A stretch of DNA of 19,078 nt from Ruminococcus sp. Its GTDB lineage: Bacteria > Bacillota_A > Clostridia > Oscillospirales > Ruminococcaceae. The notes beneath the pieces were generated by a model, which worked only from the letters and a program-made list of their open reading frames with translations, did no database searches and was not told the DNA's origin. Positions 2,844-19,078 of the stretch are shown here, in pieces. The position numbers and the translations under genes are program-made. The DNA lies in contig JAFVAN010000029.1 in assembly GCA_017480485.1 (NCBI GenBank), positions 1-19,078 on the forward strand, written 5' to 3'. The stretch's first letter is position 1, and every line of letters starts with the position of its first letter.

Positions 2844-2862
2844 ACCTATACACTCCTTAGCT

Positions 2863-2914
2863 CAATGCACAATGCACAATTATGGTGTCGGCCTCGCCGA
2901 CGAAGAATATTATT
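2863..2914. repeat. Heptad array plus hairpin between gyrA and the YcxB-like gene
   Basis: Two CAATGCA heptads (2863-2876) and a decayed third are followed by GGTG and a perfect hairpin GTCGGC-CTC-GCCGAC (2887-2901), then an AATATTA stretch that abuts the stop codon of the YcxB-like gene. The same order, heptads then GGTG then hairpin, occurs at 5854-5921 and 11785-11830. Confidence 0.7.
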
Positions 2915-3481: not shown

Positions 3482-3527
3482 AGCAAGGCTCCTTTTTTTA
3501 AACTATCAGAGATCAATAGATCTGAGC

Positions 3528-3705: not shown

Positions 3706-3814
3706 TCGCGAGGGAGCCCTCGCGGTTTACACCGTTGTAAACGAGCTTGCGAGTGCTCACGCGACCTGCCCCGGCGGGGCACCGCCCGAGCTTGCGAGTG
3801 CTCACGCGACTTGC
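3695..3814 (-). repeat. Gyrase-tail repeat, copy B (3' of gyrB)
   Basis: This is the counterpart of 212-286. It carries a perfect 8-bp hairpin CGCGAGGG-AG-CCCTCGCG (3707-3724), a 7-bp hairpin GTTTACA/TGTAAAC (3725-3742), and two copies of the CGAGCTTGCGAGTGCTCACG block (from 3742 and from 3787). A GCCCC/GGGGC hairpin region lies between those two copies. It directly follows the gyrB stop in the direction of transcription. Confidence 0.75.
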
Positions 3815-3832
3815 GTGGTGCACGCTGTGCAC

Positions 3833-5833
<2,001 letters not shown>

Positions 5834-5853
5834 TCAGCCGCTCATCCGTTTTT

Positions 5854-6054
5854 CAATGCACAATTCACAATGCACAATGCACAATGAAGGTGCCGCCTTT
5901 GGCGGATGATGGCCATTCGGCCAAATATTAACTGATATATTATTTAAGCCTTAATTATTTACTTTTTTCTTTGCACAGATCGTACAGTACTTATCTATCT
6001 GCCCCGCCCGAATGGGCATATCATTCGCGGAGCGAATACCATAATTGTGCATTG
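5854..6054. mobile_element. MITE-like element with inverted heptad ends
   Basis: This 201-bp AT-rich segment begins CAATGCA-CAATTCA-CAATGCA-CAATGCA and ends with the reverse complement of CAATGCACAATTATGG. It is therefore bounded by inverted heptad repeats. Just inside each end lie two hairpins: GCCGCC/GGCGG and GGCCATTCGGCC on the left, GCCCGAATGGGC and ATTCGC/GCGAAT on the right. It has no reading frame of note. It fills the whole space between gyrB and remB, ending one base before the remB stop codon. Non-autonomous element is an inference from its symmetry; no target-site duplication is clear. Confidence 0.6.
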
Positions 6055-6055
6055 G

Positions 6056-6304
6056 TTATCGCGACCGCTTTTTCAGCGTCGAGCAGGCCAGCTGGCTTAT
6101 GTAGACCCTCTCCGTCAGGTCCTCGTCCAAGGTGACGACGAAGCTTTTTGGCAGCTCCATAGTGCAGTTGATTACCCGCTTCTGCTTTGTGGCCTCGCTG
6201 AGGTAGTCCCTCGTGTACTTCGAGACCGAGCTTTTTTCAAGGTCAAAGATGCCTATTATATCCTTCTCGTTTACTATAAAGTCGTTTCCAAGATGAAGAT
6301 ACAT
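6056..6304 (-). CDS. remB: DUF370/RemB family regulatory protein
   Basis: This 82-residue protein begins MYLHLGNDF, the signature N-terminus of the DUF370 family (Bacillus RemA/RemB, small DNA-binding regulators; RemA acts on biofilm-matrix and osmoprotection genes). The match covers the full length, including FDLEKSSVSKYTRDYL and a C-terminal basic tail (KKRSR). Its place between recF and gyrB is exactly that of B. subtilis remB (yaaB), which is why I prefer RemB over RemA. It starts 4 nt after the recF stop with a GGAAGTGAG upstream and is surely cotranscribed with recF. Its target genes cannot be read from the sequence. Confidence 0.92.
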   Translation of the reverse strand: MYLHLGNDFIVNEKDIIGIFDLEKSSVSKYTRDYLSEATKQKRVINCTMELPKSFVVTLDEDLTERVYISQLACSTLKKRSR

Positions 6305-6308
6305 TTTC

Positions 6309-7433
6309 TCACTTCCTGTCCGAGATGACCCTGCCGCCCGCGATGTGGTAGAGCTTGCCTGTCTTATTCTTGGGTATGTTCTCGTCGCAGCAGGTTATGA
6401 ACACCTGCATATTATCTATCTTTGAGATAACGAAGCTCTGGCGCGAGGGGTCAAGCTCGCTCAAAACGTCGTCCAGCAGGAACACGGGAGCATCGTCGGT
6501 CTCCTCGGTGAGTATCTCGGCCTGTGCCAGCTTCATCACAAGGGCGATGGACCTGTGCTGTCCCTGAGAGGCAAAATCTCTGGCGGGCAGGCCGCCGATA
6601 AAGGCCATCAGGTCGTCCCTGTGCACGCCCTTCTGGGTAAAGCCCACTCTTATATCCTCGTCCCTGTTGCTCTCGAGACACCTGAGGTACTCGGGAGCCA
6701 GATCGTTTTTGTAATCGCTCCTGCCCTCAAGCTGCGAAAACACTGTGGAATTGTATCTAAGCTCCAGCTGCTCCCTTCCCCCCGAGATCTCGTTATAGAG
6801 TCTGGCGGTGAAGCTTGCCAGCTTCTTTGAGCAGCTGTATCTCAGCAGAGTTATATATGCCCCCATCTGGGCCAGCTGAACGTCCCAGACCTCCAGCTCC
6901 TCCTTTGCAGCTCTCCCGTAGGAGATGCTTTTGAGCAGCATATTTCTCTGCTCCAAGATCTGCTCGTACTTGTCGGTGACGCTCTTATAGGAGGTCTTTA
7001 TCTGGGCGGCGCAGAGGTCAACAAATTGCCGCCGCTTGTCAGGCGAGCCCTTTGAAAGCTCCAAGTCCTCGGGGGTGAACACCACGCAGTTGAAGCTGCC
7101 GAAGAGCTTTGAGGGAGCCTTCAGCTTAACGCCGTTGAGGGTGCAGTTTTTTTCCTTTATGTTCTGCCGCGCCATGCGGTAGGATATTTTCTGCTCCCGC
7201 TCCTTGTCCTTGAAGCCCAGCTCGATGCTCATGGTCTCGCAGTCAAGGCCGATCATATCCTTATCCTTTGTACTGCGAAAGCTCTTTACCCCGCTGCAAA
7301 GCCAGATGGCCTCGATAAGGTTCGTCTTTCCCTGAGCGTTGTCCCCGTAGAAGATATTCAGCTTAGGGTGGGGCTGCAGGGAGATGCTTTTTAAATTTTT
7401 ATAACCGTCGGTGTTGAAGGCTGTTATCAGCAT
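6309..7433 (-). CDS. recF: DNA replication and repair protein RecF
   Basis: RecF is an SMC/ABC-like ATPase that helps RecO and RecR load RecA onto gapped DNA. The 374-residue product has Walker A GDNAQGKT (residues 30-37), the signature-type stretch SKGSPDKRRQFVD, and Walker B FLLDDVLSELD in the C-terminal third, all typical of RecF. Length fits the family (about 360-375). The ATG at 7433 follows the S4-gene stop by one base (TGATATG on the message) and has no good Shine-Dalgarno of its own, so its translation is probably coupled to the gene before it. Confidence 0.97.
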   Translation of the reverse strand: MLITAFNTDGYKNLKSISLQPHPKLNIFYGDNAQGKTNLIEAIWLCSGVKSFRSTKDKDMIGLDCETMSIELGFKDKEREQKISYRMARQNIKEKNCTLNGVKLKAPSKLFGSFNCVVFTPEDLELSKGSPDKRRQFVDLCAAQIKTSYKSVTDKYEQILEQRNMLLKSISYGRAAKEELEVWDVQLAQMGAYITLLRYSCSKKLASFTARLYNEISGGREQLELRYNSTVFSQLEGRSDYKNDLAPEYLRCLESNRDEDIRVGFTQKGVHRDDLMAFIGGLPARDFASQGQHRSIALVMKLAQAEILTEETDDAPVFLLDDVLSELDPSRQSFVISKIDNMQVFITCCDENIPKNKTGKLYHIAGGRVISDRK

Positions 7434-7434
7434 A

Positions 7435-7659
7435 TCAAATTACAGCTATCTCGGAGCTGATCTCGTCAAGCCGGACCCTGTCGCCGACTCTTATCTTCTT
7501 GCCGCGCATAAGGCAGGTCTCGCCGTTCACCTTGACTCTGCCCTCGGCGATCATTTCCTTTGCGATGCCGCCCGTCTCGGCGACCCCCGCAAATTTGAGC
7601 AGCGAGTCAAGCTTGATGAACTCCGTATTTATTTTTATTTCCGTTGTTTCGTATTTCAT
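7435..7659 (-). CDS. yaaA: S4-domain RNA-binding protein, YaaA/RlbA type
   Basis: This 74-residue protein is almost entirely one S4 RNA-binding fold. It reads [31 protein letters not shown] followed by [10 protein letters not shown], the alpha-L loop motif. It corresponds to the B. subtilis gene between dnaN and recF (yaaA, renamed rlbA), thought to act on ribosomal RNA or ribosome assembly. I chose ATG 7657-7659 because AGGAA lies just upstream and the homologous part begins there. A longer frame opening at 7785 would add a basic, unrelated stretch. Confidence 0.9.
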
Positions 7660-7836
7660 AGTATTCGTTCCTGATGTTTTTTTACTATATCTTCTACCTG
7701 TCGCCCCTTTACGCGCGGGAGGCGGATTTTGGTGCCCGCGTTTTTCATTGCTCGCGGGGGGATCGAGCGGGCGTTTTTTTAGCACTCAGAGGGCTTGTCA
7801 ATAATTATCAACTATCAAGTATCAATTATCAATTCA
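7660..7836. repeat. dnaN-yaaA gap: heptad array and GC-rich inverted repeat
   Basis: Directly behind the dnaN stop lie four perfect tandem heptads TATCAAC, TATCAAG, TATCAAT, TATCAAT (7806-7833). Further left is a GC-rich inverted repeat: GCCCGC (about 7736) with GCGGGC, enclosing GCTCG/CGAGC and followed on the plus strand by GTTTTTTT (about 7775-7782). That would be a plus-strand terminator, yet no plus-strand gene precedes it, so its role is unclear. Confidence 0.6.
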
Positions 7837-8946
7837 TCATTTTTCTCTGGACAGTCTCACCGGCAATGTCAGATAAACATACTCGCTGCCCTTGACGGGT
7901 ACTATCTTCATTGGGTAGAGGCTGCCGCTCATTTCAAGCTTTATCTTCTCGTCGTTTATCCTGCCGAGGGGGTCCAGCATATACTTGCACTTGAAGCCCA
8001 TCTCGATAACGGGGCCAGTCATGTCCGCCCTGATCTCGTCCTGTATCTTGCCGATAGAGGTGGCGCACTTTATCCTTATCATCCCGTTCTCAAAATAGCA
8101 CCTTACGGGGCTGGGGGTCCTGTCGCTGATGAGCAGCATGGCCCTCTCGAGAGTGGAGATAAGCTCCTTCCTGTCAACTATCACCTCTGTGGTGATGTTC
8201 TTCGGGATGGCGCCCTTGTAGGGGTGGAAGTTGCCCTCGATGAGCCTTGAATATACAAGATATCCGTTTATCTCAAAAATTATGTGCTTGCTGGAAAGGA
8301 AAAGCTCGCACTTGTCCTCGTCGTTGTCGCTGAGAAGCCTTGCTACCTCGCCCATGGCGCGGGAGGGCACGATGAAGCTCTTGTCGGTCTCCACCTTAAC
8401 GTTCTCGGTCCTTACCGCAAGCCTGTAGTTGTCCATTGCCACAAGGTTGAACACGCCGTTCTCAAACTCAAAGAGCTCGCCCTTGAGGGTGGGGTTTATA
8501 TCCGAGGCCGAGGCCGCAAAAAGGGTCTGGTTTATCATGCTCTTGAACATTGGCTGGGGAAGGCTAATGTTCTCGCAGTTCTGCTTGTCGGGAAGAGTGG
8601 GATACTCGTCAGCTGCCTGAGCCGCGATGTTGTACACCGCCGAGCCTCCCGAGATCGTTACCTGCATATTCTCGTTCATCTCGATAACTATCTCGTCAGC
8701 GGGCATCTTTCTTATCATCTCGCTGAAAAGCTTGGCCTTGATTATGAACTCGCAGGCGTCGTCCGAGCGAACGGCGATGGTGGTACGGATACCTATCTCA
8801 AGGTCGTAGCCCGTCAGCTCCAGCAGAGAATCCCGGAGCTTGAATTTCATTCCCTCCAAACAGGCCAGAGAGCTCCTTTCAGAGATAGCCTTAGATACAT
8901 TCGTCATAGCCTCGTAGAGAGACAGCTTGTTGCAGATGAGCTTCAT
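7837..8946 (-). CDS. dnaN: DNA polymerase III beta subunit (sliding clamp)
   Basis: DnaN forms the ring-shaped dimer that clamps the replicative polymerase onto DNA. The 369-residue product has the family's length and three-domain pattern. It opens with MKLICNKLSLYEAMTNVSKAISERSS and carries LVAMDNYRLAVR in the middle domain (typically DGYRLA, here DNYRLA). It ends in a stretch containing YLTLPVRLSREK, where family members usually end in LP(V/M)R. ATG at 8946 is supported by the conserved N-terminus; upstream AAGGGAAG is a modest binding site. It follows dnaA on the same strand across the putative origin. Confidence 0.97.
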   Translation of the reverse strand: MKLICNKLSLYEAMTNVSKAISERSSLACLEGMKFKLRDSLLELTGYDLEIGIRTTIAVRSDDACEFIIKAKLFSEMIRKMPADEIVIEMNENMQVTISGGSAVYNIAAQAADEYPTLPDKQNCENISLPQPMFKSMINQTLFAASASDINPTLKGELFEFENGVFNLVAMDNYRLAVRTENVKVETDKSFIVPSRAMGEVARLLSDNDEDKCELFLSSKHIIFEINGYLVYSRLIEGNFHPYKGAIPKNITTEVIVDRKELISTLERAMLLISDRTPSPVRCYFENGMIRIKCATSIGKIQDEIRADMTGPVIEMGFKCKYMLDPLGRINDEKIKLEMSGSLYPMKIVPVKGSEYVYLTLPVRLSREK

Positions 8947-9008
8947 AAAGATCTACTTCCCTTCTCTTTTTCAACAGGCCCGCTCGTAAACGCCCGTCAT
9001 TTTTTCTG

Positions 9009-9054
9009 TGATATCATATCATATCAATAATTATTATAGTAATCTTAGTAGTAG
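9009..9054. other. AT-rich unwinding stretch with DnaA-trio-like TAG repeats
   Basis: Positions 9009-9045 are nearly all A/T with three ATATC units, and TAGTAGTAG follows at 9046-9054, directly touching the first box-like 9-mer (9055-9063). This matches the Bacillus order: unwinding element, then trinucleotides read 3'-GAT, then DnaA boxes. A TATAAT on the minus strand (9033-9038) with a weak TTCAAC 17 bp upstream could be a dnaN promoter overlapping the same stretch. Confidence 0.6.
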
Positions 9055-9281
9055 AGTTGAAAACAGGGATAAACTGTTTTTCAACGGCTGCCGCCGCGAT
9101 TTGAGGGCCGTTAAAAAGCAACACCGGATGTTGAAAAATGTTTGATAGTGTCAGCAAATTTTCGGCTGTTGAAAGTGTTTATTTTCTGTGAGTTTAATGT
9201 CACAAATTTCTTGAAAGAAATGTTGAAACAAAAATAACGCTGTTAAAAGTCTTGATAATTTTTTCAATAGCCTGTTGAAAG
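9055..9281. promoter_or_regulatory. Cluster of noncanonical DnaA-box-like 9-mers
   Basis: Members, read in the TTTTCAACA sense: 9055-9063 minus (TTTTCAACT), 9078-9086 plus (TTTTCAACG), 9129-9137 minus (exact), 9167-9175 minus (CTTTCAACA), 9221-9229 minus (GTTTCAACA), 9261-9269 plus (TTTTCAATA), 9273-9281 minus (CTTTCAACA). A looser one is TGTTAAAAG at 9241-9249. Outside the cluster, exact copies lie at 8968-8976 and upstream of dnaA at 10914-10922. The first two face each other as an inverted repeat (9056-9085). They differ from TTATCCACA mainly at the third and sixth bases. Confidence 0.6.
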
Positions 9282-9341
9282 CAGGCCTTTGCCGCGGCCC
9301 TGCGCGTTTTGCTTCTTTGAAAAAATGTTAGCTGAGACCTG

Positions 9342-10679
9342 TCAGTTGTTTTTAAGATTTTTGATGATGTCCTCAATGGTGTGGCGGAAGTCGGGGTTCT
9401 TGTTCATCCTGTCGATGACGTCCTGATAGTGCAGGGTCATGGTGGAGTGGTTCTTGCCCAGCTCGTCGCCGATCTGTATGTAGGTCATAGCCTTTACTTC
9501 CTTGAGGACGTAAATGGTCACCTTCCTTGCAAGGGAAACGTTCTTTCTCCTGTCCTTGGAGCGGATGTCCTCGGCGGAGACGTTGAAGGTGTTGGCCACC
9601 TCGTAGATCACCCGGTCAACGGTTATCTCCTGAGGGTGGTTCTGGATCATTATCTCCTTGACTACCTTCTGGGCCATTGCCATGGAGGGGGTCTCGTTGG
9701 TGAACTCCGTAAGGCCCTTCATCTTGTTTACGGTGCCCTCCAGCTGACGGATATTGGTCTTTATCTTTTCGGCAATGAGCCTTGCAATGTTGTCATTGAG
9801 CTGCAAGCCAACGATCTCGGCCTTGCGCTTTACTATTGCCATCCTTGTCTCAAAATCCGGGGGCTGGATGTCCGCCTGGATGCCCAGGGCAAAGCGGGAG
9901 CGCAGCCTGTTTTCCAAAAGGTGCATCTTCGAGGGGGCGATATCCGCCGTCAGCACCAGCTGCTTTCTGGCGTTGTAGAGGTCGTTGAAGGTGTGGAAAA
10001 ATTCCTCCTGTGCGGTGGCCTTGCCGCTTATGAACTGGATGTCGTCGATAAGCAGAAAGTCGGCGCTGCGGTACTTGCTGTGGAACTCGTCGGTGGTGTT
10101 GTTCTTTATGGCCTCCACCAGCTCGTTCAAGAAGTTCTCGCCCGTGGTGTAGATTATCTTTGTCTCGGGGCGCTTTTTCTTTACCTCGTTCTCGATGGCC
10201 TTCATAAGGTGGGTCTTGCCAAGGCCCGAGTCCCCGTAAATGAATAAGGGATTGTAGGTCTGGTTGGCGCTCTGCTGGCTGTTGATCTCGCTCCTGCCAG
10301 CAACTGCCATAGAAAAAGCATAAGCAAGGTCGTTGGACTTGCCCTTTACAAAGTTATCGAAGGTGAAGTTGTCGAACTGGGGCGCAGCCTCTGCCTTCGG
10401 AGCGTCCTCGGGGGCTTCGTCCTTCGAGCGTATCATAAGCTCCACCTCCACGGGGAAGCCCAGCACGTTCTTGAAGGCCTCGGCAATAATGTCCGAATAG
10501 TGGGCGCTGATTATCTTCTTTGTAAAGTCGCTCTCGGTGAGAAGGTAGACCTTGCTTTCGTCGAGCTTGTAGGGCTCGAGAGTCTTTATCCATTTTTCAT
10601 AGGCGATAGAGCTGATATTGTCGGTATCCGCTTCGCAGTATTTCAAAACGAGGTCAAAAACGTCGTTAAGAGAGTCCAT
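9342..10679 (-). CDS. dnaA: Chromosomal replication initiator DnaA
   Basis: DnaA is the AAA+ ATPase that binds origin boxes and opens DNA. The 445-residue product shows an N-terminal domain I, a short linker, Walker A GDSGLGKT (149-156), Walker B LLIDDIQF (209-216), the sensor-I region VLTADIAPSKM, the arginine-finger region ENRLRSRFALG, sensor II in IRQLEGTVNKM, and a C-terminal helix-turn-helix. The reading head, usually GGRDHSTV, is GKNHSTMT here (408-415). ATG 10679 has AAAGGAAAGG upstream. A strong promoter lies about 140 bp upstream and a hairpin sits in the leader. Confidence 0.98.
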   Translation of the reverse strand: MDSLNDVFDLVLKYCEADTDNISSIAYEKWIKTLEPYKLDESKVYLLTESDFTKKIISAHYSDIIAEAFKNVLGFPVEVELMIRSKDEAPEDAPKAEAAPQFDNFTFDNFVKGKSNDLAYAFSMAVAGRSEINSQQSANQTYNPLFIYGDSGLGKTHLMKAIENEVKKKRPETKIIYTTGENFLNELVEAIKNNTTDEFHSKYRSADFLLIDDIQFISGKATAQEEFFHTFNDLYNARKQLVLTADIAPSKMHLLENRLRSRFALGIQADIQPPDFETRMAIVKRKAEIVGLQLNDNIARLIAEKIKTNIRQLEGTVNKMKGLTEFTNETPSMAMAQKVVKEIMIQNHPQEITVDRVIYEVANTFNVSAEDIRSKDRRKNVSLARKVTIYVLKEVKAMTYIQIGDELGKNHSTMTLHYQDVIDRMNKNPDFRHTIEDIIKNLKNN

Positions 10680-10777
10680 GTGAATTTCTTTCCTTTCCTT
10701 TTAGAGATAAGCTTTAAGGTGTTAAAAAGGCAGCAGCTTTTTGGGCCTCTGCCCCCTTGTTTTTTTGTCAAGATCTG

Positions 10778-10797
10778 CCCTATTTCCAAAAATAGGG
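10778..10797 (-). promoter_or_regulatory. Hairpin in dnaA leader
   Basis: A perfect 8-bp stem CCCTATTT/AAATAGGG with a 4-nt loop lies just downstream of the dnaA minus 10 box. It would form near the 5' end of the dnaA message, or could serve as a symmetric protein-binding site. It is too AU-rich, and lacks a U-run, for a normal terminator. Confidence 0.5.
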
Positions 10798-10818
10798 TAT
10801 AATACTCAATTCTATAAC

Positions 10819-10847
10819 ATTATACCACGATTTGAAAAAAATTTCAA
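10819..10847 (-). promoter_or_regulatory. dnaA promoter (sigma-A type)
   Basis: On the minus strand TTGAAA (10842-10847) and a perfect TATAAT (10819-10824) are spaced by exactly 17 bp. Transcription would start near 10812, giving a leader of about 130 nt. An exact DnaA-box-like site lies about 70 bp upstream, which would allow autoregulation (inference). Confidence 0.75.
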
Positions 10848-10994
10848 GGGTAAATAGGCCAAATCCTCTATAATTTATAATAGTATATTTTACGAATTGA
10901 ACATACCACTGTATGTTGAAAAATCGGGCCGTATAAATAACTATATATTGCGGTCAAAAAGGGGTTAAAATAAATTTAAGAATTTTTTAACCAA

Positions 10995-11313
10995 CCCCCT
11001 CTCCTTCCTGCTCTTTCGGACATTGCTATTTCATTGTGCATGACTATTGGGGAAAACCTTTCTGAAGAAAGGATTTTCCCCAAACCCCTTTCCAAAGACT
11101 TTTAGCGAATTTTTGGCGAGGGCGTCTGCAACCCCGGTAAAAAGCAGAAATTTTAAAGTCTGATGCACCCATAGAAAACTCAGGCGCCCTCGCCAAAAAT
11201 CATTAAAAGTTTTAGTGAGGGGGTCTGGGGGATGACCCTTTTTCAAAAGGGTCTCCCCCAGCGGTCACGCACAATAGAATAATAAAGCCCGAAAGAGCAG
11301 GGAGGAGAGGGGG
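10995..11313. mobile_element. Long palindromic element, copy 1 (319 bp)
   Basis: Its ends are 25-bp inverted repeats (10995-11019 and 11289-11313) that match at 24 of 25 positions. Inside are two terminal hairpins (about 11048-11081 and 11225-11257) and a perfect central 15-bp stem TTTTTGGCGAGGGCG (11110-11124 with 11185-11199). The whole core is a reverse-complement match to the element at 14999-15337. No conserved reading frame exists. It lies between the divergent dnaA and rpmH promoters. Confidence 0.8.
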
Positions 11314-11391
11314 GATGTTATCTAAATTGCATAGCCAAATCATAGAATTTTGCTCAAAAAGTGCAAAAATATAAAAAAATCCCGAATTGAC

Positions 11392-11421
11392 TTGACAAAC
11401 CCCTTGCATTTGAGTTATAAT
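11392..11421 (+). promoter_or_regulatory. rpmH promoter (sigma-A type)
   Basis: A perfect TTGACA (11392-11397) and a perfect TATAAT (11416-11421) are separated by 18 bp, giving a leader of about 75 nt before rpmH. It is a strong consensus promoter, as expected for a ribosomal protein gene. Confidence 0.85.
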
Positions 11422-11503
11422 AGGATATTGCAAGGGCTTATTGTCTGTTTTCGCAGCTGTACGTATTGCCCGTTATCATGTACCTTGAAGGGAGGATCTT
11501 GAA

Positions 11504-11638
11504 ATGAAAAGAACATATCAGCCTAAAAAGCTCCAGAGAAAGAAAGTTCACGGTTTTATGAAGAGAATGTCTACAAGAAACGGCAGAAAGGTTCTCGCCC
11601 GCAGACGCGCCAAGGGCAGAGCAAGACTGACCTATTAA
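11504..11638 (+). CDS. rpmH: 50S ribosomal protein L34
   Basis: This 44-residue, very basic protein begins [19 protein letters not shown] and ends AKGRARLTY, the full L34 signature and length. L34 is a small protein of the large ribosomal subunit. AAGGGAGG at 11488-11495 lies 8 nt before the ATG. Its own consensus promoter precedes it and a terminator-like hairpin follows 24 nt after the stop, so rpmH may be mostly monocistronic here. In most bacteria rpmH and rnpA are adjacent; here about 280 bp with a repeat element separates them. Confidence 0.98.
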
Positions 11639-11661
11639 GAGCTTTTTTCTTTATGAGGATT

Positions 11662-11705
11662 GACCATATACCGGTCCCCGATCGGTATACGGTCTTTATC
11701 TTTTT
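11662..11705 (+). terminator. rpmH terminator
   Basis: The stem is GACC-A-TATACCG paired with CGGTATA-C-GGTC (11662-11673 with 11683-11694; one A-C mismatch), loop about 9 nt, followed by a T-rich run to 11705. Confidence 0.8.
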
Positions 11706-11719
11706 ATGATGTATTTTAA

Positions 11720-11748
11720 TTAACATATATTTTTAATTAATGTACAAT
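11720..11748 (+). promoter_or_regulatory. Candidate rnpA promoter
   Basis: TTAACA (11720-11725) and TACAAT (11743-11748) are spaced by 17 bp, one mismatch from consensus in each box. It lies just after the rpmH terminator and would drive rnpA-yidD-yidC-jag. AT-rich context makes a chance match possible. Confidence 0.5.
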
Positions 11749-11757
11749 TCATTTGTG

Positions 11758-11896
11758 CTGAAAATCATAAATGATTTTCAGAGGCTAGAAATTAGATGCT
11801 AGAGGTTAGAAAAGGTGTCCGCAAAGCGGACTATTAAAAAATAAGCGCCGAAGGCGCACCTCTTCTAACCTCTCACCTCTCACCTCTAACCTCTAG
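11758..11896. repeat. Palindrome plus two-armed heptad element before rnpA
   Basis: A perfect 11-bp stem with a 2-nt loop (11758-11781) is followed by left heptads (CTAGAAA, TTAGATG, CTAGAGG, TTAGAAA; 11785-11812), GGTG, hairpin GTCCGC/GCGGAC, a second hairpin GCGCC/GGCGC, and right heptads CTAACCT, CTCACCT, CTCACCT, CTAACCT (11865-11892) in the opposite sense. The layout mirrors the 5854-6054 element with a different unit sequence. It lies within the predicted rnpA leader. Confidence 0.7.
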
Positions 11897-11922
11897 CAGC
11901 GCAGCGCGGGCGGGAGAAAAAG

Positions 11923-12285
11923 ATGCTGTTCACCGAGATAATAAAGGACAACAAAAGCTTTTTGAGATGCTACCGCAGGGAAGGCTACTGCGCCTGCCCT
12001 TATCTGTGTGTGTATTATCTGAAGAACGACAGCCCCTATAACCGCCTTGGGATATCAGTCGGGAAGAAGCAGGGCAAGGCCGTTGTAAGAAACAGGATAA
12101 AGAGGGTCTTCCGCGCTGCCTACAGACTCAGCGAGACTGATTTTCCCATCGGCTATGACATTGTTTTTATGGCCAGAGGCGAGGGTGCTGCGGCCGACAC
12201 GAGAGAGGTCATGGGCTTTATTAAAAAGAGAGTCATCCCACGGATGAACGAGGACGCCGCAGGCGGCAGAAGGAAGAAAAAATGA
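11923..12285 (+). CDS. rnpA: Ribonuclease P protein component
   Basis: RnpA is the protein cofactor of RNase P, which removes 5' leaders from tRNA precursors. The 120-residue product contains [23 protein letters not shown] (residues 41-63), the RNR signature of the family, and a basic C-terminal tail (GGRRKKK). The start ATG has GGGAG 6 nt upstream. Its last codons overlap yidD by 4 nt (ATGA), so the two are translationally coupled. Confidence 0.97.
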
Positions 12286-12545
12286 AGCTTCTTTCAGCAA
12301 TATTCACCCTGCCGATAAGATTCTATCAGAGATTTATAAGCCCGCTGTTCCCCGCAAGGTGCAAGTATTATCCCACCTGCTCCTGCTACGCGGTGGACGC
12401 CTACAAGAAGCACGGAGTCATAAAGGGCACGGTGCTCACGGGCTGGCGGCTGCTGAGGTGCAACCCCTGGAGCCTGGGCGGCGTTGACAGGGTGCCCGAG
12501 AGATTCGAGCTCGACTATTTTAAAATAAAACGAAGAAGAGGCTGA
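12282..12545 (+). CDS. yidD: Membrane protein insertion efficiency factor YidD
   Basis: YidD is a small membrane-associated protein with an N-terminal amphipathic helix that aids YidC-dependent insertion. The 87-residue product has [28 protein letters not shown] and [14 protein letters not shown], the conserved family blocks with their cysteines. It overlaps rnpA (ATGA) and sits 36 bp before yidC, the standard order. Confidence 0.97.
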
Positions 12546-12581
12546 ATATTTCTGCCTCTTGCTTTTGAACGAGGAAACAAA

Positions 12582-13946
12582 ATGTTTATATTCAATCTGT
12601 TTGCTACACCGCTCGGCTGGATAATGAAGCTGTGCTACAAGCTGGTCAGCAACTACGCGCTGGCGCTGCTTATCTTCACGCTTATCACAAGGCTTATACT
12701 GCTGCCTTTGAATATAAAGCAGCAGAAGAGCACGGCCCGTATGTCCATGCTCCAGCCCGAGATGGATAAGCTTAAAAAGAAATATTCCAAAAATCAGGAA
12801 AAGCTCAACGAGGAGACAATGGCCCTCTACCAGAAGCATGGCGTGAACCCCATGGCAAGCTGCCTGCCGATGCTTCTGAGTATGCTCATCCTGTTCTCAA
12901 TGATCCCCGTTATCTACGGGCCGCTTACCTATGTTTCAGATCTGGACAAGGACAAGGTGACAGCCTCCAACACCATGATAACGAACCTTGCCACCGTCAG
13001 TCAGGGCATGAAGGCCTCGGACACCACCATGGCCAAGCTGCTGGAGGAGAACGGCGGCGACTACGACAAGGTGTTTGAGATCATCACCGACGACGACAAG
13101 GACGGCGACAACTACAAGAACTACAAGGATACCAGAAAGATCTTCGACGACAAGGACAGCAGCTGCGACGAGTGGCAGAAGCTGGTGGAGATCTTTGAAA
13201 AGCATCCCGATATTGACGAATTCATCACCAACGATGAATATGTTTCTCAGACCCTCTCGAAGACCAGACCCGAGCTCACCACCTTCGATTTTGTTGACAA
13301 GGACAAGGCGGACGCTCAGTATGCCGACATACTGGACAGCAAGGTAAGAGCTTTCGCAGAGGATTTCAACTACGAGATCTTCGGGCTCTCTCTGGGCGCC
13401 ATACCCAGCATGAAGTCCAAGCTTGCGCTGATACCTATTCTTTCCTTCCTGCTTCAGCTGCTGGCGACAGTGATCTCCATGCACTACACAAAGAAGAACA
13501 ACCCCAGCCAGGCAGGCATGAACGGCTCCATGAAGGTAATGCTCTTCCTGATGCCCCTGTTCTCGCTGTGGATAGCCTTCAGCTACCCTGCAGGCCTCGG
13601 TCTTTACTGGATATTCTCCTCCTTTATCGGTATCTTCCAGACTATATTCCTGAATAAGGTATACAGCCCCGCCAAGGTGAAGGCCATAGTCGAGAAGGAA
13701 ATGGAGGAGGCCAAGCAGAGGCGCAAGAGCGGCAAAAAGACCTTTATGGAGCGCGCTCTCGAGATCCAGCAGGAGCAGAACGGCAGAAAGCCCATAAAAG
13801 ACGACGACGATGACGAAGAGGAAGACGAAGACAAGCCCGAGAAAAAGCTTTCCAAGGCAGAGCTCAAGGAGCTGCAAAGAAAGAAGCTGAACGAGGCAAG
13901 AAAGAGAATGGCCGAAAAATACGGCGACGAGTACACGGAAGAATAA
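12582..13946 (+). CDS. yidC: Membrane protein insertase YidC/OxaA family
   Basis: YidC inserts and folds membrane proteins, alone or with Sec. Hydrophobic segments lie at about 24-43, 92-113, 280-300, 318-337 and 340-357, with the groove arginine at R37 (TRLILLPL) and a cytoplasmic coiled-coil hairpin (46-88). The 454-residue protein is long for a Gram-positive YidC: residues about 119-275, between the second and third membrane helices, form a large Asp/Lys-rich insertion where relatives have a short external loop. No lipoprotein signal peptide or lipobox is seen. The C-terminus (about 370-454) is highly charged, with an Asp/Glu run and basic ends typical of ribosome-contacting tails. GAGGAAACAAA precedes the ATG. 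Confidence 0.95.
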
Positions 13947-13992
13947 TTGTCGGATGAGTCAGGACCCGACGTAAACGAAAGGAATGATACAG

Positions 13993-14796
13993 GTGAAAAA
14001 AGAATTCACAGCAGCAACTGTAGAGGAAGCAAAGCAGCAGGCCGCCGCAGAGTTCGGCGTATCGGAGGAGGAGATAACCTTCAACGTGCTTGAGGAGCCC
14101 AAGAAGGGCCTCTTCGGAAAGGTAAAGGGAGAAGCAAGGGTAGAGGCCGAGTACGAGCCTCCCGTAGTCCTCACAAAGGCTGACACCGCAAAGAATTATA
14201 TGCTCAGCGTGATAAGCGCCATGGGCATCGAGGGCGCCGAGATCGACGCCGAGGAGATCGAGAACGGAGCAATGTTCGAGATCAGGAGCGAGGAGTTTGA
14301 GGAGCTCATCGGAAGAAAGGGTGAGCTGCTGGATGCGCTGCAGTACCTGTCCTCGCTGGTCTGCAATAAGGTAGACAGAGATTATTACAGAGTTTCCACC
14401 GACTGCAACGGCTTTAGAGAGCGCCGCAAGGGCCAGCTCGAGGGCCTTGCAAGAAAGATAGCAAACAACGTTAAGAGAAGCGGCAGGACCTCGGCTCTGG
14501 AGCCTATGAACCCCTACGAGAGAAGGATAATCCACGCCGCAGTTTCGGAGATCGAGGGCGTTACCTCCCACTCCACCGGCGAGGAGCCCTACAGAAAGGT
14601 CATCATCTCCTCTACGGAGAAGAAGCCCAGGAGCGACAGAGGTGACTTCCGCGGAAAGGGCGGCAGACGCGGCGGAAGGCGCGACAGGCGCCCCAGAGAG
14701 CACTTCGACATCACCACAAGCTTTGAAAAGGACTACAAGAGACCCAAGCCCGAGGATACCCTCAACGCGGGCCTCTACGGAAAAATAGAATTCTGA
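13993..14796 (+). CDS. jag: Jag/KhpB RNA-binding protein
   Basis: Jag (KhpB) is a cytoplasmic RNA-binding protein linked to cell elongation and division in Gram-positives, encoded beside yidC. Domains in order: Jag_N (KKEFTAATVEEAKQQAAAEFG to about residue 55), a KH domain with GRKG in LIGRKGELLDAL, and an R3H domain with R-x-x-x-H in ERRIIHAAVSE. An Arg/Gly-rich stretch (GKGGRRGGRRDRR) and a tail ending in GLYGKIEF follow. I chose GTG 13993 because AAAGGA (13978-13983) lies 9 nt upstream; the in-frame ATG at 13984 touches that site directly and is less likely. Confidence 0.93.
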   Translation: MKKEFTAATVEEAKQQAAAEFGVSEEEITFNVLEEPKKGLFGKVKGEARVEAEYEPPVVLTKADTAKNYMLSVISAMGIEGAEIDAEEIENGAMFEIRSEEFEELIGRKGELLDALQYLSSLVCNKVDRDYYRVSTDCNGFRERRKGQLEGLARKIANNVKRSGRTSALEPMNPYERRIIHAAVSEIEGVTSHSTGEEPYRKVIISSTEKKPRSDRGDFRGKGGRRGGRRDRRPREHFDITTSFEKDYKRPKPEDTLNAGLYGKIEF

Positions 14797-14802
14797 ACAA
14801 GT

Positions 14803-14834
14803 ACAGCCTCATTCCCGCAATGAGGCTGTTTTTT
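14803..14834 (+). terminator. jag operon terminator
   Basis: A perfect 11-bp stem (14803-14813 with 14819-14829, core AGCCTCATT/AATGAGGCT) with a 5-nt loop is followed directly by six T. A textbook intrinsic terminator 7 nt after the jag stop. Confidence 0.95.
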
Positions 14835-14998
14835 CGCTGTAGGCGCACGGTGCCTCTTTTTTACTCCTTAATAGAACATTTTTATAAAGTTCATAAAATG
14901 TTTCAAAAATAAATAAACCAAAATGCCCTTCTAAATGCTCATAAACACAGGACGACCAACTCAAGGGGGTGTATGCCCTCAAGTCCGTAAAAACAGAA

Positions 14999-15337
14999 CT
15001 CCCGCTCCTGCCGTGCTCTGCCGTAAATAATAATTTACCCTGCCCTCTGCGGAGTCTATTGGGGGAGACCCTTTTGAAAAAGGGTCATCCCCCAAACCCC
15101 CTCACTAAAACTTTTAATGATTTTTGGCGAGGGTGCCTGAGTTTTCCCTAAGTGCATCAGACTTTAAAGCTTTCTGTTATTTCCCGAAGTCGCAGACACC
15201 CTCGCCAAAAATTCGCTAAAAGTCTTTGGAAGGGGGGTCTGGGGGGATAACCTTTCTTCAGAAAGGTTTCCCCCCAGCAAGCTCCGCAGAAAGTAGGATA
15301 AACTATCGTTTGTGGCAGAGCACGGCAGGAGCGGGAG
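14999..15337. mobile_element. Long palindromic element, copy 2 (339 bp)
   Basis: Ends are perfect 24-bp inverted repeats (14999-15022 and 15314-15337). The core (about 15060-15275) matches the reverse complement of the element at 10995-11313 with, by eye, about 22 differences in 214 positions. It has the same two end hairpins and a perfect central 15-bp stem TTTTTGGCGAGGGTG (15121-15135 with 15197-15211). Its outer arms differ from those of copy 1. It ends 5 nt before the AAGGAG of the next small gene. Confidence 0.8.
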
Positions 15338-15356
15338 AAAAAAAGGAGCTGTGTGT

Positions 15357-15506
15357 ATGACATTAGAGGAGCTGATCCGAAAAGTGGTCAGGTATATGAA
15401 TGAACGGGGTATGTTCGAGGATGTAAAAAAGAATTTCAAAGGGAGGAGTGACAGAAATGTCAAAACGAACAGAAGAGCTCGTGAGGATGGCCAAAAGCGG
15501 GGATAA
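15357..15506 (+). CDS. Small hypothetical protein overlapping sigma gene
   Basis: This is a 49-residue basic product (begins MTLEELIRKVVRYMNERGMF) that I do not recognise. Support is its position and an excellent AAGGAG at 15343-15348, 8 nt before the ATG. Its last 50 nt overlap the start of the sigma-LRR gene in another frame, so it could be a leader peptide whose translation feeds the sigma start site, or a real small partner. The C-terminal half (KTNRRAREDGQKRG) is read out of frame through sigma codons and is less likely to be functional. No homology evidence is available. Confidence 0.45.
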   Translation: MTLEELIRKVVRYMNERGMFEDVKKNFKGRSDRNVKTNRRAREDGQKRG

Positions 15507-17778
15507 CGGGGCCTTCGGGGAGCTTTACAGCGAAAACAGCGACAAGCTCCTGAAATACATAATCGGCATGAACGTTAAGCAGGCGGACGCCGAGGACATC
15601 ATGTCCGAGACCTTTATGGACGCCATGACCCACATCGGGGACCTGAAAAATGAAGAGGCCTTTTCAAGCTGGCTTTTCACCATCGCAAAGCGGAAGGTCT
15701 ACGCCCACACCAAGGACACGGGCCGCCGGGTGGAGGCTGTGATAAAGGACGACAGCGCCTACAATGACGGCGTGTCGGAGCTTGCGGACCGGTACGCCTA
15801 CGAGGGCGAGGATATCTACGGGAACACCGTTATGCTCCCCAGCGACTACGCCGAGAACGAGGAGGTGCGGGAGCTGGTGGTGGCCACCATAAGCTCCCTG
15901 AGCGAGGAGCAGCGGACCGTCATATACGGCTATTACTACGACGGCAAGACCTCGGCAGAGCTGGCGGAGGAGCTGGGCGTTAACGAGAACACCGTGCGCT
16001 CGCGGATAAAGTACGCAAAGCAGCACATCGAGAAGAAGCTGAAGGAGCTGCAAAAGAGCGGCGTTGTGCTCTCGGCGGTGCCTATCAGCAGGATACTTGC
16101 GCTGGCGTTAGAGAACTCGAAGCGCAAGGCGATCGTCGCGGCAGGGGGCGCAACAGCCGCCGCCGCAGGCGCAGGCTCGGGGACGAAGATCGCTGCGGCT
16201 ATCATCACGGTCGCGGCCACCATCGGCATCGGCATCGGCGTTGTGACCTTCGGGAAGATAAACGGCGACAAGGGCCTAAAGGACAGCCTGCCCGACAGCG
16301 GCAGCGAGACCGTTACCACCACCGTCACCACCACCCGCCCCGCCCCCGAGGAGGAGAGCGAGGCGGAGCCCGACAGCCTGTCTGAGCAGAACGAGAGCGG
16401 GGCAGAAACCGAGCGTGAAAGGCAGGAGCCTACCGGGACCGCAAGCAGCAATGAGCCCGACTCTCCGCAGACGGGGGGCAGCTCGGGAAGCCGCAGCCCC
16501 GCAGGCACTCAGCCCGGCGAGGCCTCCCCCGCTGAGCAGACCCCCGCAGGAACAGGGTCCTCGGCCTCGGGCGGGCGCACCACCACTCCCGGTGAAGGCA
16601 CCACCGCCAAGACCGGCTCTCAGGGCAGCTCTCGCGGCGGCTCAACGGGCGGCAACGGCACTCAGGCGCCCTCGACCCCCGCAGCAGGCACAACAGCCCC
16701 CCAGGGTACCACATCCCCTCAGGAGACTGCGGCCGAGACCAAGCCCGCCCGCGAAAACGACACCACCCCCGTGCTCTACTCCGGCAACTGCGGCGCAAAC
16801 GGAGATAATATAAAGTGGGAGCTCCACGAGAGCGGCACGCTTTATTTGTACGGCGAGGGGGAGATGCCCAACTCTACTAATTATTGGACTCTTTATGGTA
16901 GTTCTGCTACTTATTTTTACGGTGAGAAATTTAGTATGGATCTGATCAAAAATGTAGTAGTTGGAGAAGGGATAACAAGTATATACAGGATAACAGGAGG
17001 TTATACGGAATCAATAGATCTACCAAGATCCTTAAAAACAATTTATAAAGATACCATTATCCTAAATAACATGAAAACTATTTTTATTCCTGCTAACGTA
17101 GAAATAATTGAGGATAATTTAGGTGTAACAATGATAGATGGAGGAGTTTCCCCAACAGGAAATGGAGTCAATGAGGAGATAATTGTAGATCCAAATAACA
17201 AATATTATAGTTCATATGACGGTGTATTATATAACAAAGATCAAACGGAATTACTACGATTTCCAATAAAAAAGAATAGTGTTGTATTTCCCGGCACACT
17301 TAAAACAATGGCAAGCGGGGCCTTCAATCAAGCTGAAATAAAAACTGTTGTTGTTCCAAATGGCGTTACAGATATTAGTACAGCATTTAGAAACAGCAGA
17401 GTAAACAGTATTACATTACCTAATACGATCACCAGATTAGAAAGCCATGCTTTTGATGATTCACGTATTGAGACCTTCAATTTGCCTGATAGTTTGAGGT
17501 ATATAGGAGATTGGACTTTTTATGGTTGTTATTTAGAAAACATAGTTATTCCAAATGGTGTTACTTATATTGGAAGCTGTGCATTTAGAAATTGCTTTGA
17601 GCTGAAAAGTGTAACAATTCCTGACAGTGTAACAACTATCAATGGAGCATACGTTTTTTATTTTGATAACAATACCGGCAAAAACAGGCTGGATGAATTC
17701 AGGATCATATGTAACAAAGGCTCTTATGCCGAGACCTATGCAAATAAAAACGACCTCCCCGTCGAATATCTCACATAA
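15457..17778 (+). CDS. Membrane-anchored ECF-like sigma factor with BspA-type LRR ectodomain
   Basis: This is a 773-residue fusion. Residues about 8-90 are sigma-70 region 2 (AFGELYSENSDKLLKYI, DAEDIMSETFMDA, FSSWLFTIAKRKVYAH). About 140-200 are region 4 (LSEEQRTVIYGYYYDGKTSA, then the helix-turn-helix LAEELGVNENTVRSRIKYAK). One membrane segment follows (about 244-265, AAIITVAATIGIGIGVV), then a roughly 170-residue Ser/Thr/Pro/Gly/Glu linker. The last 300 residues are BspA-like leucine-rich repeats (IPDSVTTI, IGDWTFYGCYLENIVIPNG) ending in a typical GSYAETYA block. The layout predicts a cytoplasmic sigma domain and an extracellular repeat domain. I chose ATG 15457 (GGGAGG 10 nt upstream) over GTG 15448. 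From about 16870 the base composition drops sharply from GC-rich to AT-rich. The target promoters and ligand are unknown. Confidence 0.88.
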   Translation: MSKRTEELVRMAKSGDNGAFGELYSENSDKLLKYIIGMNVKQADAEDIMSETFMDAMTHIGDLKNEEAFSSWLFTIAKRKVYAHTKDTGRRVEAVIKDDSAYNDGVSELADRYAYEGEDIYGNTVMLPSDYAENEEVRELVVATISSLSEEQRTVIYGYYYDGKTSAELAEELGVNENTVRSRIKYAKQHIEKKLKELQKSGVVLSAVPISRILALALENSKRKAIVAAGGATAAAAGAGSGTKIAAAIITVAATIGIGIGVVTFGKINGDKGLKDSLPDSGSETVTTTVTTTRPAPEEESEAEPDSLSEQNESGAETERERQEPTGTASSNEPDSPQTGGSSGSRSPAGTQPGEASPAEQTPAGTGSSASGGRTTTPGEGTTAKTGSQGSSRGGSTGGNGTQAPSTPAAGTTAPQGTTSPQETAAETKPARENDTTPVLYSGNCGANGDNIKWELHESGTLYLYGEGEMPNSTNYWTLYGSSATYFYGEKFSMDLIKNVVVGEGITSIYRITGGYTESIDLPRSLKTIYKDTIILNNMKTIFIPANVEIIEDNLGVTMIDGGVSPTGNGVNEEIIVDPNNKYYSSYDGVLYNKDQTELLRFPIKKNSVVFPGTLKTMASGAFNQAEIKTVVVPNGVTDISTAFRNSRVNSITLPNTITRLESHAFDDSRIETFNLPDSLRYIGDWTFYGCYLENIVIPNGVTYIGSCAFRNCFELKSVTIPDSVTTINGAYVFYFDNNTGKNRLDEFRIICNKGSYAETYANKNDLPVEYLT

Positions 17779-17783
17779 AAACC

Positions 17784-17816
17784 AGCCGAGGGCCCGCGCC
17801 CTCGGCTGTTGCTTTT
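17784..17816. terminator. Bidirectional terminator between sigma-LRR and endolysin genes
   Basis: A perfect 10-bp GC-rich stem AGCCGAGGGC/GCCCTCGGCT (17784-17793 with 17798-17807), loop CCGC. A T-rich tract follows on the plus strand, and an A-rich tract precedes it (U-rich on the minus strand), so it can stop both convergent genes. Confidence 0.88.
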
Positions 17817-18522
17817 ATTTCAGCTTACTATAAATCCTCTTCACAAACTCCGCGCCCGCCAGGCCTGTCTCCTTGTAGCCCCAGGCCTTTTGCAGGGCCT
17901 TGACGGCCTTAACTGCCGTGTCGTCGTAGGTCTTGGTCTCGGTAACGGCGACGGTGTGGAGCTTCTTTGCCGCTGCCAGCCGCAGCAGCTCCTTGACTGC
18001 CAGAGCGCCCACGGTGGTATCACCTTTCTTGTAGCAACTGCCGCTGTCGAGCAAGGGCGGCGCGCCGTTGACCTTCGTCTGGTCCTTGGGGCGCAGGACC
18101 CCCGCCACGGGCCAGCAGGCGTCGCTGCCCGTCTTGTTGTTGTACCAATGCTTGATCAGCTGGGCCTTTTCGTGGTTGCCCAGGGTGTTTTGTTCGAGGC
18201 TCGTGAACCAGTCAATGTTCCCCTCGCCGTTGGCTATTGCGACGTGCCCCCAGCTGCCGCCGGACCAGATGACGACGTCGCCCTTCTGCGCCACCAGTGC
18301 CTTGGTGTTCGGTATCCTGTCGAAGTTCTTGACGAGGGCCGGGAGCTTTGCATAGTTTGTGTAAAACTCCCTTGCCCCCGATACCCATGGCATCTCGCTT
18401 GTTTTGATGCCGATGACGTCTCGGAAGTACAGGTCCGCCAGGTCAACGCACTGGACCCCCGCCTTGCCGTCGAAGTCTACTGGCTTTCCAAGGTACTTTT
18501 TCTGGAATTCATCGTAGGTCAT
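17815..18522 (-). CDS. Phage CHAP-domain endolysin
   Basis: This is a 235-residue cell-wall hydrolase (amidase or endopeptidase of the CHAP family). The CHAP fold shows catalytic Cys25 (GVQCVDLADLYF), His93 (SWGHVAIANG) and the EQN stretch at 110-112 (SLEQNTLGN). After a linker with Pro/Asp, residues about 160-235 form a separate domain (YDDTAVKAVKALQKAWGYKETG) resembling a peptidoglycan-binding helical repeat. No signal peptide is present, so release would depend on a holin. GGAGG lies 4 nt before the ATG, and the start overlaps the preceding gene's stop (ATGA). It is last in the lysis module, read leftward. Confidence 0.92.
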   Translation of the reverse strand: MTYDEFQKKYLGKPVDFDGKAGVQCVDLADLYFRDVIGIKTSEMPWVSGAREFYTNYAKLPALVKNFDRIPNTKALVAQKGDVVIWSGGSWGHVAIANGEGNIDWFTSLEQNTLGNHEKAQLIKHWYNNKTGSDACWPVAGVLRPKDQTKVNGAPPLLDSGSCYKKGDTTVGALAVKELLRLAAAKKLHTVAVTETKTYDDTAVKAVKALQKAWGYKETGLAGAEFVKRIYSKLK

Positions 18523-18743
18523 AAAACCTCCACCTTCCTTTCAAGATCATCTATCCTGTGATTTGCTACACGGATATCCTTTTCAACAAGTGCCATTCTT
18601 TCAACGACATTGTTGTGCTTCTCGACCTTCTTTTCAAGCTGTTCTATCCGATATGACATAAGCCGTATGCCCGAATAAGACCCGATAAACGTGCCTACAA
18701 GAGACAGGATAGCCACTATTATCTCACTCGTCCCCACTGTCAT
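18519..18743 (-). CDS. XhlA/holin-like small membrane protein with coiled coil
   Basis: This is a roughly 74-residue protein with one N-terminal hydrophobic segment (IIVAILSLVGTFIGSYSGI) followed by a heptad-rich helix (RIEQLEKKVEKHNNVVERM, then RIDDLERKVEVL). This is the build of XhlA-type lysis accessory proteins. Its position, overlapping the endolysin by ATGA, fits that role. The start is uncertain: GTG 18746, ATG 18743 or GTG 18737 (best spaced from AAGGTG) are all possible. Whatever the choice, it overlaps the upstream holin-like gene. Confidence 0.75.
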   Translation of the reverse strand: MTVGTSEIIVAILSLVGTFIGSYSGIRLMSYRIEQLEKKVEKHNNVVERMALVEKDIRVANHRIDDLERKVEVL

Positions 18744-18930
18744 CACCTTCTCTTTCTGCTTTGTATTTCTGATACTGTGTGCCGAAGTAGAAGCTGATGA
18801 TGACCGTGAAGATCGTGAGAAACTGCTCTGCCGTTACATCCCCACGCAGGCTGAGGGCGCAGAATACCGCCGTCAGCGCGAGGGTCACAAGGCTTTTAAC
18901 GTCTATCAGCTTTGAGATTTTCTTGAACAT
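18724..18930 (-). CDS. Putative phage holin
   Basis: This is a 68-residue protein with two hydrophobic segments (about VTLALTAVFCALSL at 15-28 and FLTIFTVIISFYFG at 37-50) joined by a short turn, and a charged C-terminus (KAEREGDDSGDE). That is the usual two-helix holin design, which would open the membrane for the endolysin. The specific holin family is not identified. Its ATG follows the upstream gene's TGA with no gap (TGAATG), and its end overlaps the next gene. Confidence 0.75.
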   Translation of the reverse strand: MFKKISKLIDVKSLVTLALTAVFCALSLRGDVTAEQFLTIFTVIISFYFGTQYQKYKAEREGDDSGDE

Positions 18931-19078
18931 TCAGCCACCGTCCTTTAGTGCCAGTCTGTTCCCGTAGTACATCTTGCTGTTGCCGACTGCATAAAGATCA
19001 TGCTTATACAGATCAACGCAGCCCATGGTGATGTACAGATCCTCCCAGACCGCGACCACAGACGCGGTGTCAATGTAA
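18931..19078 (-). CDS. C-terminus of a phage protein (partial)
   Basis: This open frame enters from the right edge and stops at 18931-18933. The visible 48 residues include VWEDLYITMGCVDLYKHDLY and end in LALKDGG. I do not recognise a domain. Its place directly before the holin suggests a late structural (tail or baseplate) gene. It extends beyond the window. Confidence 0.6.
   Translation of the reverse strand, partial: YIDTASVVAVWEDLYITMGCVDLYKHDLYAVGNSKMYYGNRLALKDGG

Follow-up and report, generated by a model that had tools for sequence, protein, structure and literature searches.

Extracytoplasmic function (ECF) sigma factors fused to a membrane part are a known kind of regulator, described for IutY and SCO4117 (PMC8999054). 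In IutY of Pseudomonas putida (ECF243) the sigma factor is fused to a membrane part and freed by Prc and RseP, and the outside domain of SCO4117 is described as carbohydrate-binding (PMC8999054). In the class II pair CnrY/CnrH of Cupriavidus metallidurans, two helices are reported to suffice for clamping an ECF sigma factor (PMC4598750, PMC7406223). In this study, we report the analysis of a 19,078-nucleotide stretch of Ruminococcus sp. DNA (assembly GCA_017480485.1, contig JAFVAN010000029.1, positions 1 to 19,078 of the forward strand; hereafter the window), in which a sigma module, a predicted membrane segment and BspA-type leucine-rich repeats (LRR) are read from one gene, and a conserved microprotein from an overlapping open reading frame (ORF). 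With modest confidence, we favour a membrane-tethered, one-component ECF sigma factor that would be released on an outside signal and on which the microprotein would act in an anti-sigma-like manner.

The initial annotation had described a single 773-codon frame at 15457-17778 joining sigma-70 regions 2 and 4, a membrane segment, a linker and BspA-type repeats, and domain search, hydropathy and composition all agree with that description. The frame is uninterrupted on the plus strand and starts with ATG, with GGGAGGAG ending 8 bases upstream. Pfam searches matched Sigma70_r2 (PF04542) at residues 23-90 with 39.1 bits (cut-off 24) and Sigma70_r4_2 (PF08281) at residues 139-191 with 48 bits (cut-off 25.7), and PF04545 likewise exceeded its curated cut-off. 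The NCBIfam sigma70-ECF model TIGR02937 scored 93.3 bits against a cut-off of 42.9, which places the protein among the ECF sigma factors. Residues 245-263 form the one outstanding hydrophobic segment, and relatives carry a segment at a comparable position; by domain search and hydropathy prediction, an ECF sigma factor and a membrane segment are joined in one chain. Beyond a linker at residues 276-435 (18% T, 15% S, 14% G, 12% E and 11% P), LRR_5 (PF13306) was matched at residues 642-735 with 110.1 bits (cut-off 27.7), identifying the repeats as BspA-type.

Only about 53 residues separate sigma4 from the membrane segment. The translation of residues 192-244 contains no Cys and no His, and hence no zinc-finger anti-sigma domain, and the seven Pfam families that the protein matched to E 0.01 include no anti-sigma domain. 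Two motifs stand out in an alignment of 33 sequences. In the LPSDY motif P128 is invariant and L127, D130 and Y131 are nearly so, and in the VVLSAVP motif after sigma4, P209 is invariant in 33/33; a low-confidence helix follows at residues 210-235 in the N-terminal AlphaFold2 model.

A single polypeptide that carries both a promoter-recognition module and a membrane-anchored LRR domain, the latter most likely extracellular, was proposed earlier; the architecture recurs in the locus L001 (protein P0002, 702 aa, with the same neighbours as in the window), in L027 and in P0068. Eleven genomes were chosen from 17 (G001-G016 and G128), G003, G009, G010, G012, G015 and G016 being left out because they lacked a strong family match. 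They hold 35 family loci with E values of 1e-30 or lower (36 rows, two of which are pieces of one broken copy), and the notion that the window gene is unique was rejected on the strength of these loci and paralogues. Some of the 35 loci show no membrane segment, namely C157 and C71 of G001 (contig ends), the broken G128 copy and C47 of G006, whose frame has only 238 aa. G001, the genome of L001, carries the L001 gene and five paralogues with 37-44% identity, of which two are truncated at contig ends. Among 78 sigma-like proteins, scanned only beyond residue 185, a hydrophobic segment was found in 41 and was absent in 34, the remaining 3 being cut or broken. A broken family sigma gene was also seen in L077 (G128:C2:181-958, minus strand), where the microprotein is identical to that of L042/L071 over the matched stretch; this copy is a recent duplication in decay.

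The overlapping microprotein ORF, the composition break within the gene and the many paralogues with other outer parts were absent from the initial annotation. The first 50 nt of the sigma gene also belong, in a different frame, to the microprotein ORF, and AAGGAG, resembling a ribosome-binding site, lies upstream of that ORF at 15343-15348. Over 28 codons compared with L001, 12 of 14 base differences fall at third positions, giving 10 synonymous and 3 nonsynonymous codon changes; random change of the same size produced about 10 nonsynonymous changes and never fewer than 4 in 20,000 trials. This codon pattern indicates that the microprotein is under purifying selection. There are 42 database relatives, of which the four with a source name are each a 'hypothetical protein' of Ruminococcus, one being named as Ruminococcus sp. 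NK3A76; this places the locus in Ruminococcus or a close relative. The window microprotein had no Pfam match to E 1, and the 10 of 24 aligned microproteins that were scanned gave only the sub-threshold matches DUF596 (E 0.019, L020) and Bindin (E 0.21, L028).

A profile of 22 microproteins was run on 7,905 frames from 357 kb of loci, several of them overlapping. The window microprotein, itself one of the 22 training rows, matched at E 6.7e-10. Every match better than 1e-7 adjoined a family sigma gene (that of L007 being truncated ahead of its membrane segment), and the 34 sigma-like proteins without a membrane segment had no match of that strength next to them. In the 11 genomes all 28 matches at E 0.01 adjoin a family sigma locus (tables compared by eye); these tests are partly circular in that most matches are alignment rows, and their non-circular part is that no match at E 0.01 occurred elsewhere in these genomes. 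The earlier suggestion of a fusion that takes the place of the usual sigma/anti-sigma pair is not supported as stated, because the conserved microprotein, present beside 28 of the 35 family loci, could itself be an inhibitor.

There is an appreciable minority chance that the microprotein is not an anti-sigma factor and instead serves translation coupling, helps folding or insertion, or acts as a positive co-factor. In 26 of 27 tabulated loci its ORF runs 1-65 nt past the sigma start, as is typical of translational coupling, and it has no similarity to known anti-sigma factors and no Pfam match over cut-off. What is conserved, however, is the amino-acid sequence and not the overlap alone. In L027 and L086, moreover, the microprotein gene lies downstream (3') of the sigma gene, not upstream, and is therefore not only a leader of it, although a non-sigma ORF comes next there, to which it might be coupled.

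Weaker profile matches (E 0.005 to 0.74) were not used further. Two of them lie upstream of sigma-membrane genes, at about 240 nt in L048 (E 0.005) and about 220 nt in L046 (E 0.69; again in L088), in genomes from a wider family search, and hint that the partner is more widely spread; those in L024 and L039 do not adjoin a sigma-membrane gene. By eye, many B-type loci, such as L028, L080, L030, L075 and L014, share a block upstream of the microprotein that resembles TGCACAA-N15-TTTGTGCA, followed by CGTAACC, CGATAAG or CGCTAAC. The block is perhaps a common promoter or operator, and the window does not show it. In the A-type loci L003, L004 and L013, inspection by eye suggests housekeeping-like TATAAT boxes instead.

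The initial annotation had proposed a survey of genomes for the same architecture; it does recur in relatives, and the LRR type is one outer part among several. In the Ruminococcus family these are LRR (window, L001/P0002, L027 and P0068), transglutaminase-like (P0067; PF01841, 27.1 bits against a cut-off of 23), FtsX permease (over the Pfam cut-off in L070 and L073, the two scanned) and many without a Pfam name beyond the sigma regions. In L070, L072, L073, L076, L078, L079 and L082 the sigma part is apparently fused to a whole FtsX/MacB-type permease, giving proteins of about 1115-1154 aa. The sigma-FtsX fusions have 7-9 predicted hydrophobic segments. The microprotein is encoded upstream of them, and in all 7 FtsX-type loci examined the next ORF, directly downstream, is ATPase-like and bears Walker A and LSGGQ motifs. 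L006 encodes a 313-aa sigma-membrane protein (1285-2223, minus strand) and, immediately after it, a separate large membrane protein (2-1282, minus strand) which by eye is similar to an FtsX-type permease; the pair may be the fusion in split form. The outer part of L015 (202-2262, minus strand) resembles by eye an extracellular solute-binding protein, in a region where no Pfam domain was called.

Two AlphaFold2 models were examined. The N-terminal model (first 276 residues; mean predicted local distance difference test (pLDDT) score 68.7, predicted template modelling score (pTM) 0.38) gives confident sigma2 and sigma4 domains. Foldseek matched the sigma part to sigma-E, AlgU, SigW, CnrH and similar factors, and region 2 alone superposes well on 4lup (0.88). 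The full-length model, from 12 sequences (mean pLDDT 55.8, pTM 0.35), shows residues 651-773 as an LRR solenoid (72-95 pLDDT), whose best Foldseek match is 4h09, an LRR protein of Eubacterium ventriosum (E 7.4e-9); the linker is disordered and residues 436-640 are mostly poor. An N-in/C-out topology with the LRR part outside is favoured, because relatives have an FtsX-type permease or a transglutaminase-like domain at the same point and because a working sigma part must be cytoplasmic. The topology is thus inferred from relatives and function and not from flanking charges.

Under the favoured reading, the outward LRR domain would bind a glycan, a protein or the surface of a neighbouring cell as its ligand, while the cytoplasmic sigma part would be held latent at the membrane through its tether when the signal is absent. 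A possible internal contact between the LPxDY linker motif and the VP motif after sigma4 may help to keep it latent, and the co-translated microprotein, in which a helix pattern was read by eye from the alignment, may form a minimal two-helix anti-sigma-like clamp of an anatomy comparable to CnrY. Ligand binding would then lead to cleavage near or in the Gly/Ala-rich membrane segment, and the sigma part would join RNA polymerase, as in IutY. Ligand, proteolysis and anti-sigma action are thus putative steps, and the proposal of latency and release draws on the anatomy of the locus and on systems described in PMC8999054, PMC4598750, PMC7406223 and PMC8103513.

The sigma part might instead never be released: the LRR signal would alter conformation or clustering, and RNA polymerase would be recruited at the membrane. 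Activators of the ToxR/CadC type work at the membrane in this way with DNA. We regard this as unlikely but worth weighing, as no cleavage site was found and the FtsX fusions are awkward for simple release, whereas they would go well with a switch coupled to a transporter. IutY, the fusion that has been studied by experiment, in contrast acts via proteolytic release according to PMC8999054, and a Gly/Ala-rich segment would suit an intramembrane protease, Pro being present in the segment of many relatives although not in that of the window.

The family seems to diversify by swapping outer parts around a retained sigma part, which would let one output module serve many sensors. P0002 and P0003 are identical through residue 226, both continue into an Ala-rich membrane region, and they are unrelated from about residue 270. 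P0067 (transglutaminase-like) and P0068 (LRR) are 70-93% identical per 30-residue block (mean about 83%) up to residue 270 and unrelated past it. Between the window and L001 the sigma part is 83% identical, with 68 synonymous and 34 nonsynonymous codon changes, and the outer part 30-40% identical, with 57 and 193; these counts indicate purifying selection on the sigma part.

BspA-type LRR proteins are often surface adhesins, and the window protein does match the NCBIfam adhesin HupY model, although with 57.8 bits it falls well short of the cut-off of 1250. That the LRR part is a cell-surface adhesin, with the sigma part reporting attachment or persisting as a decaying passenger, is nevertheless quite improbable, the sigma part being the most conserved part of the protein.

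The GC content at third codon positions (GC3) falls inside the window gene from 0.75 (codons 401-440) to 0.23 (codons 481-520), and seven other window genes (gyrA to jag) have values of 0.72-0.77. In all three sigma-LRR genes that were read as DNA, GC3 drops from 0.70-0.83 over the sigma part to 0.2-0.3 across most of the LRR part and rises in the last short bin (21-33 codons). A similar drop was found in L004, which has a different outer part, and most other members tabulated lack it. The idea that an assembly or frame artefact joined two genes, to which the strong composition break at about codon 480 might point, was rejected as extremely improbable, since the window protein is recorded on four contigs, L001 (with the same neighbours) and L027 share both the architecture and the same kind of break, and P0068 shares the architecture. 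We also considered whether LRR proteins in these genomes generally have a low GC3, which is not clearly the case, values being mixed. Among four other LRR proteins of G001, L090, L100 and L109 are mostly at 0.63-0.88 and L095 falls to 0.40-0.52 in its later half. The LRR proteins of G013 and G128 include low or mosaic ones (L093, L101 and L108) alongside even ones. Import of the outer cassette in the LRR type is therefore likely but not proven from codon composition.

Several observations weigh against a microprotein-controlled sigma factor that is released from exchangeable outer parts. The microprotein is absent from 7 of the 35 family loci (three in G004 and one each in G001, G008, G011 and G128), and a profile search of PDB chains to E 10 gave four unrelated matches, with no CnrY or solved anti-sigma factor among them. 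The microprotein occurs in two forms, the short form pairing with a longer sigma2-sigma4 linker (53-59 residues in 6/6 loci against 37-45 in 21/21, with no overlap); this fits a microprotein-sigma contact but also common descent, and the match may reflect shared ancestry. Several of the 21 loci are near-duplicates, as are some B-type loci. Across 24 loci microprotein distances correlate with those of the sigma part at r 0.64 and with those of the outer part at r 0.54, and the former value can likewise stem from shared ancestry. With a mean of 2.42, the hydrophobicity of the membrane segment is no more than moderate, neither AlphaFold2 model resolves this segment, and the near-flank charges (1 K/R in the 20 residues before, 3 in the 20 after) appear to point, if anything, the wrong way for N-in/C-out. 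The N-terminal model taken as a whole superposes poorly in Foldseek (query template modelling score about 0.3), the internal contact consists of low-confidence strands in the full-length model that are absent from the N-terminal model, and cleavage site, protease and ligand are all putative in the release and ligand steps. As to exchange, P0003 is recorded only as a protein on two contigs and may be a chimera, and the correlations of outer-part distances with those of the sigma part (r 0.40, 24 loci) and of the microprotein (r 0.54) argue against exchange being free throughout the set.

Searches of an open-access library turned up neither a sigma-LRR fusion nor outer-part exchange among such proteins nor the microprotein, although the 2021 ECF classification may describe them; these three features are apparently new. 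Tentatively, and with somewhat less confidence than for the tethered factor itself, we propose a modular class in Ruminococcus in which a membrane ECF sigma factor may be the output module for LRR, transglutaminase-like, permease and other domains, and may mostly be silenced by a microprotein from an overlapping gene, a new minimal anti-sigma factor. If this is true, Ruminococcus-type bacteria would sense their surroundings via single proteins that reach from an outside sensor to RNA polymerase, and would gain new senses by swapping outer domains. The overlapping microprotein would then be a very small handle for turning these factors on or off, and with just two genes it would become possible to test how a membrane-fused sigma factor is silenced without an anti-sigma domain. 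In the sigma-FtsX fusions, a transporter would be linked directly to transcription.

Table 1. Features of the sigma gene, the microprotein ORF and the flanking DNA in the window
Feature	Position	Strand	Basis
Sigma-membrane-LRR gene, 773 aa + stop	15457..17778	+	Open frame, domain searches
Sigma-70 region 2, residues 23-90	15523..15726	+	Pfam PF04542; AlphaFold2 blocks 80-97 pLDDT
Sigma-70 region 4, residues 139-191	15871..16029	+	Pfam PF08281; AlphaFold2 blocks 84-95 pLDDT
LPSDY motif, sigma2-sigma4 linker, residues 127-131	15835..15849	+	33-sequence alignment
VVLSAVP post-sigma4 motif and next helix, residues 203-225	16063..16131	+	Alignment, low-confidence model
Single predicted transmembrane segment, residues 245-263	16189..16245	+	Kyte-Doolittle mean 2.42
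T/S/G/E/P/A-rich linker, residues 276-435	16282..16761	+	Composition; pLDDT <40 nearly throughout
Predicted extracellular part with BspA-type LRRs, residues 436-773	16762..17775	+	Pfam PF13306
Low-GC3 stretch, codons 481-720 (GC3 0.17-0.30)	16897..17616	+	Codon composition
Microprotein ORF, 49 aa + stop	15357..15506	+	Profile match, selection test, database relatives
Terminator-like hairpin after the sigma gene	17783..17808	both	Pattern match
Terminator-like hairpin after jag	14803..14829	+	Pattern match only

The window is an origin region, with gyrA, gyrB, recF, dnaN and dnaA on one strand and rnpA, yidD, yidC, jag and the sigma gene on the other; the identity of jag was confirmed by NCBIfam search, and the other names are those that we take the translations to indicate. 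In L001, on a contig of an uncultured Clostridia metagenome-assembled genome, the gene order from rnpA to a CHAP-type gene is as in the window (most names by eye). The terminator-like pattern occurs 6 times in the region against 4.1 expected by chance. A promoter scan of 14780-17900 gave 2 promoter-like sites, both on the other strand, with 2.9 expected by chance, and the window had no Rfam match at the gathering threshold. Between jag and the microprotein ORF, positions 14999-15337 resemble a miniature inverted-repeat transposable element, with 76-nt imperfect inverted ends (79% complementary) and a relative in the dnaA-rnpA gap at 11044-11260 (89% over 215 bp). A short repeat (209-286 and 3692-3769, 84% over 80 bp) lies just past the downstream ends of gyrA and gyrB, and a YcxB-like protein is encoded between these genes at 2915-3481 on the minus strand (PF14317, 26.6 bits, cut-off 23.3). 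A CHAP-domain protein is encoded at 17815-18522 on the minus strand (29.4 bits, cut-off 26; peptidoglycan-binding match sub-threshold), with a similar CHAP-type ORF at the same position in L001 (by eye), and the short ORFs past it resemble a phage lysis module by eye.

In the SigI/RsgI systems the sigma factor and the membrane sensor are two proteins, whereas the window combines both in one. SigI/RsgI of cellulolytic clostridia are described as several sigma paralogues in one anaerobe, engaged in carbohydrate sensing (PMC10575876). The likeness of the microprotein to CnrY lies in the two helices proposed for it; no sequence similarity between them was found, and the interaction with the sigma part is a proposal here. 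CnrY is described as the cytoplasmic domain of a larger membrane-linked system, unlike the microprotein. SCO4117 and the groups ECF48, ECF52 and ECF53 of Actinobacteria are described as a sigma factor, a membrane helix, a proline-rich region and an outside ligand-type domain (PMC8999054), and the window protein is predicted to be built likewise. That description gives them a zinc-finger anti-sigma domain, whereas the window protein, from another phylum, has no Cys or His in the corresponding residues and carries LRR. IutY is described with a fused anti-sigma factor, one of the iron-starvation cell-surface signalling type (PMC8999054); the window, unlike IutY, has an LRR outer part and no recognised anti-sigma domain, and encodes a separate microprotein. 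In both, an ECF sigma factor is joined C-terminally to a membrane-spanning regulatory part within one polypeptide.

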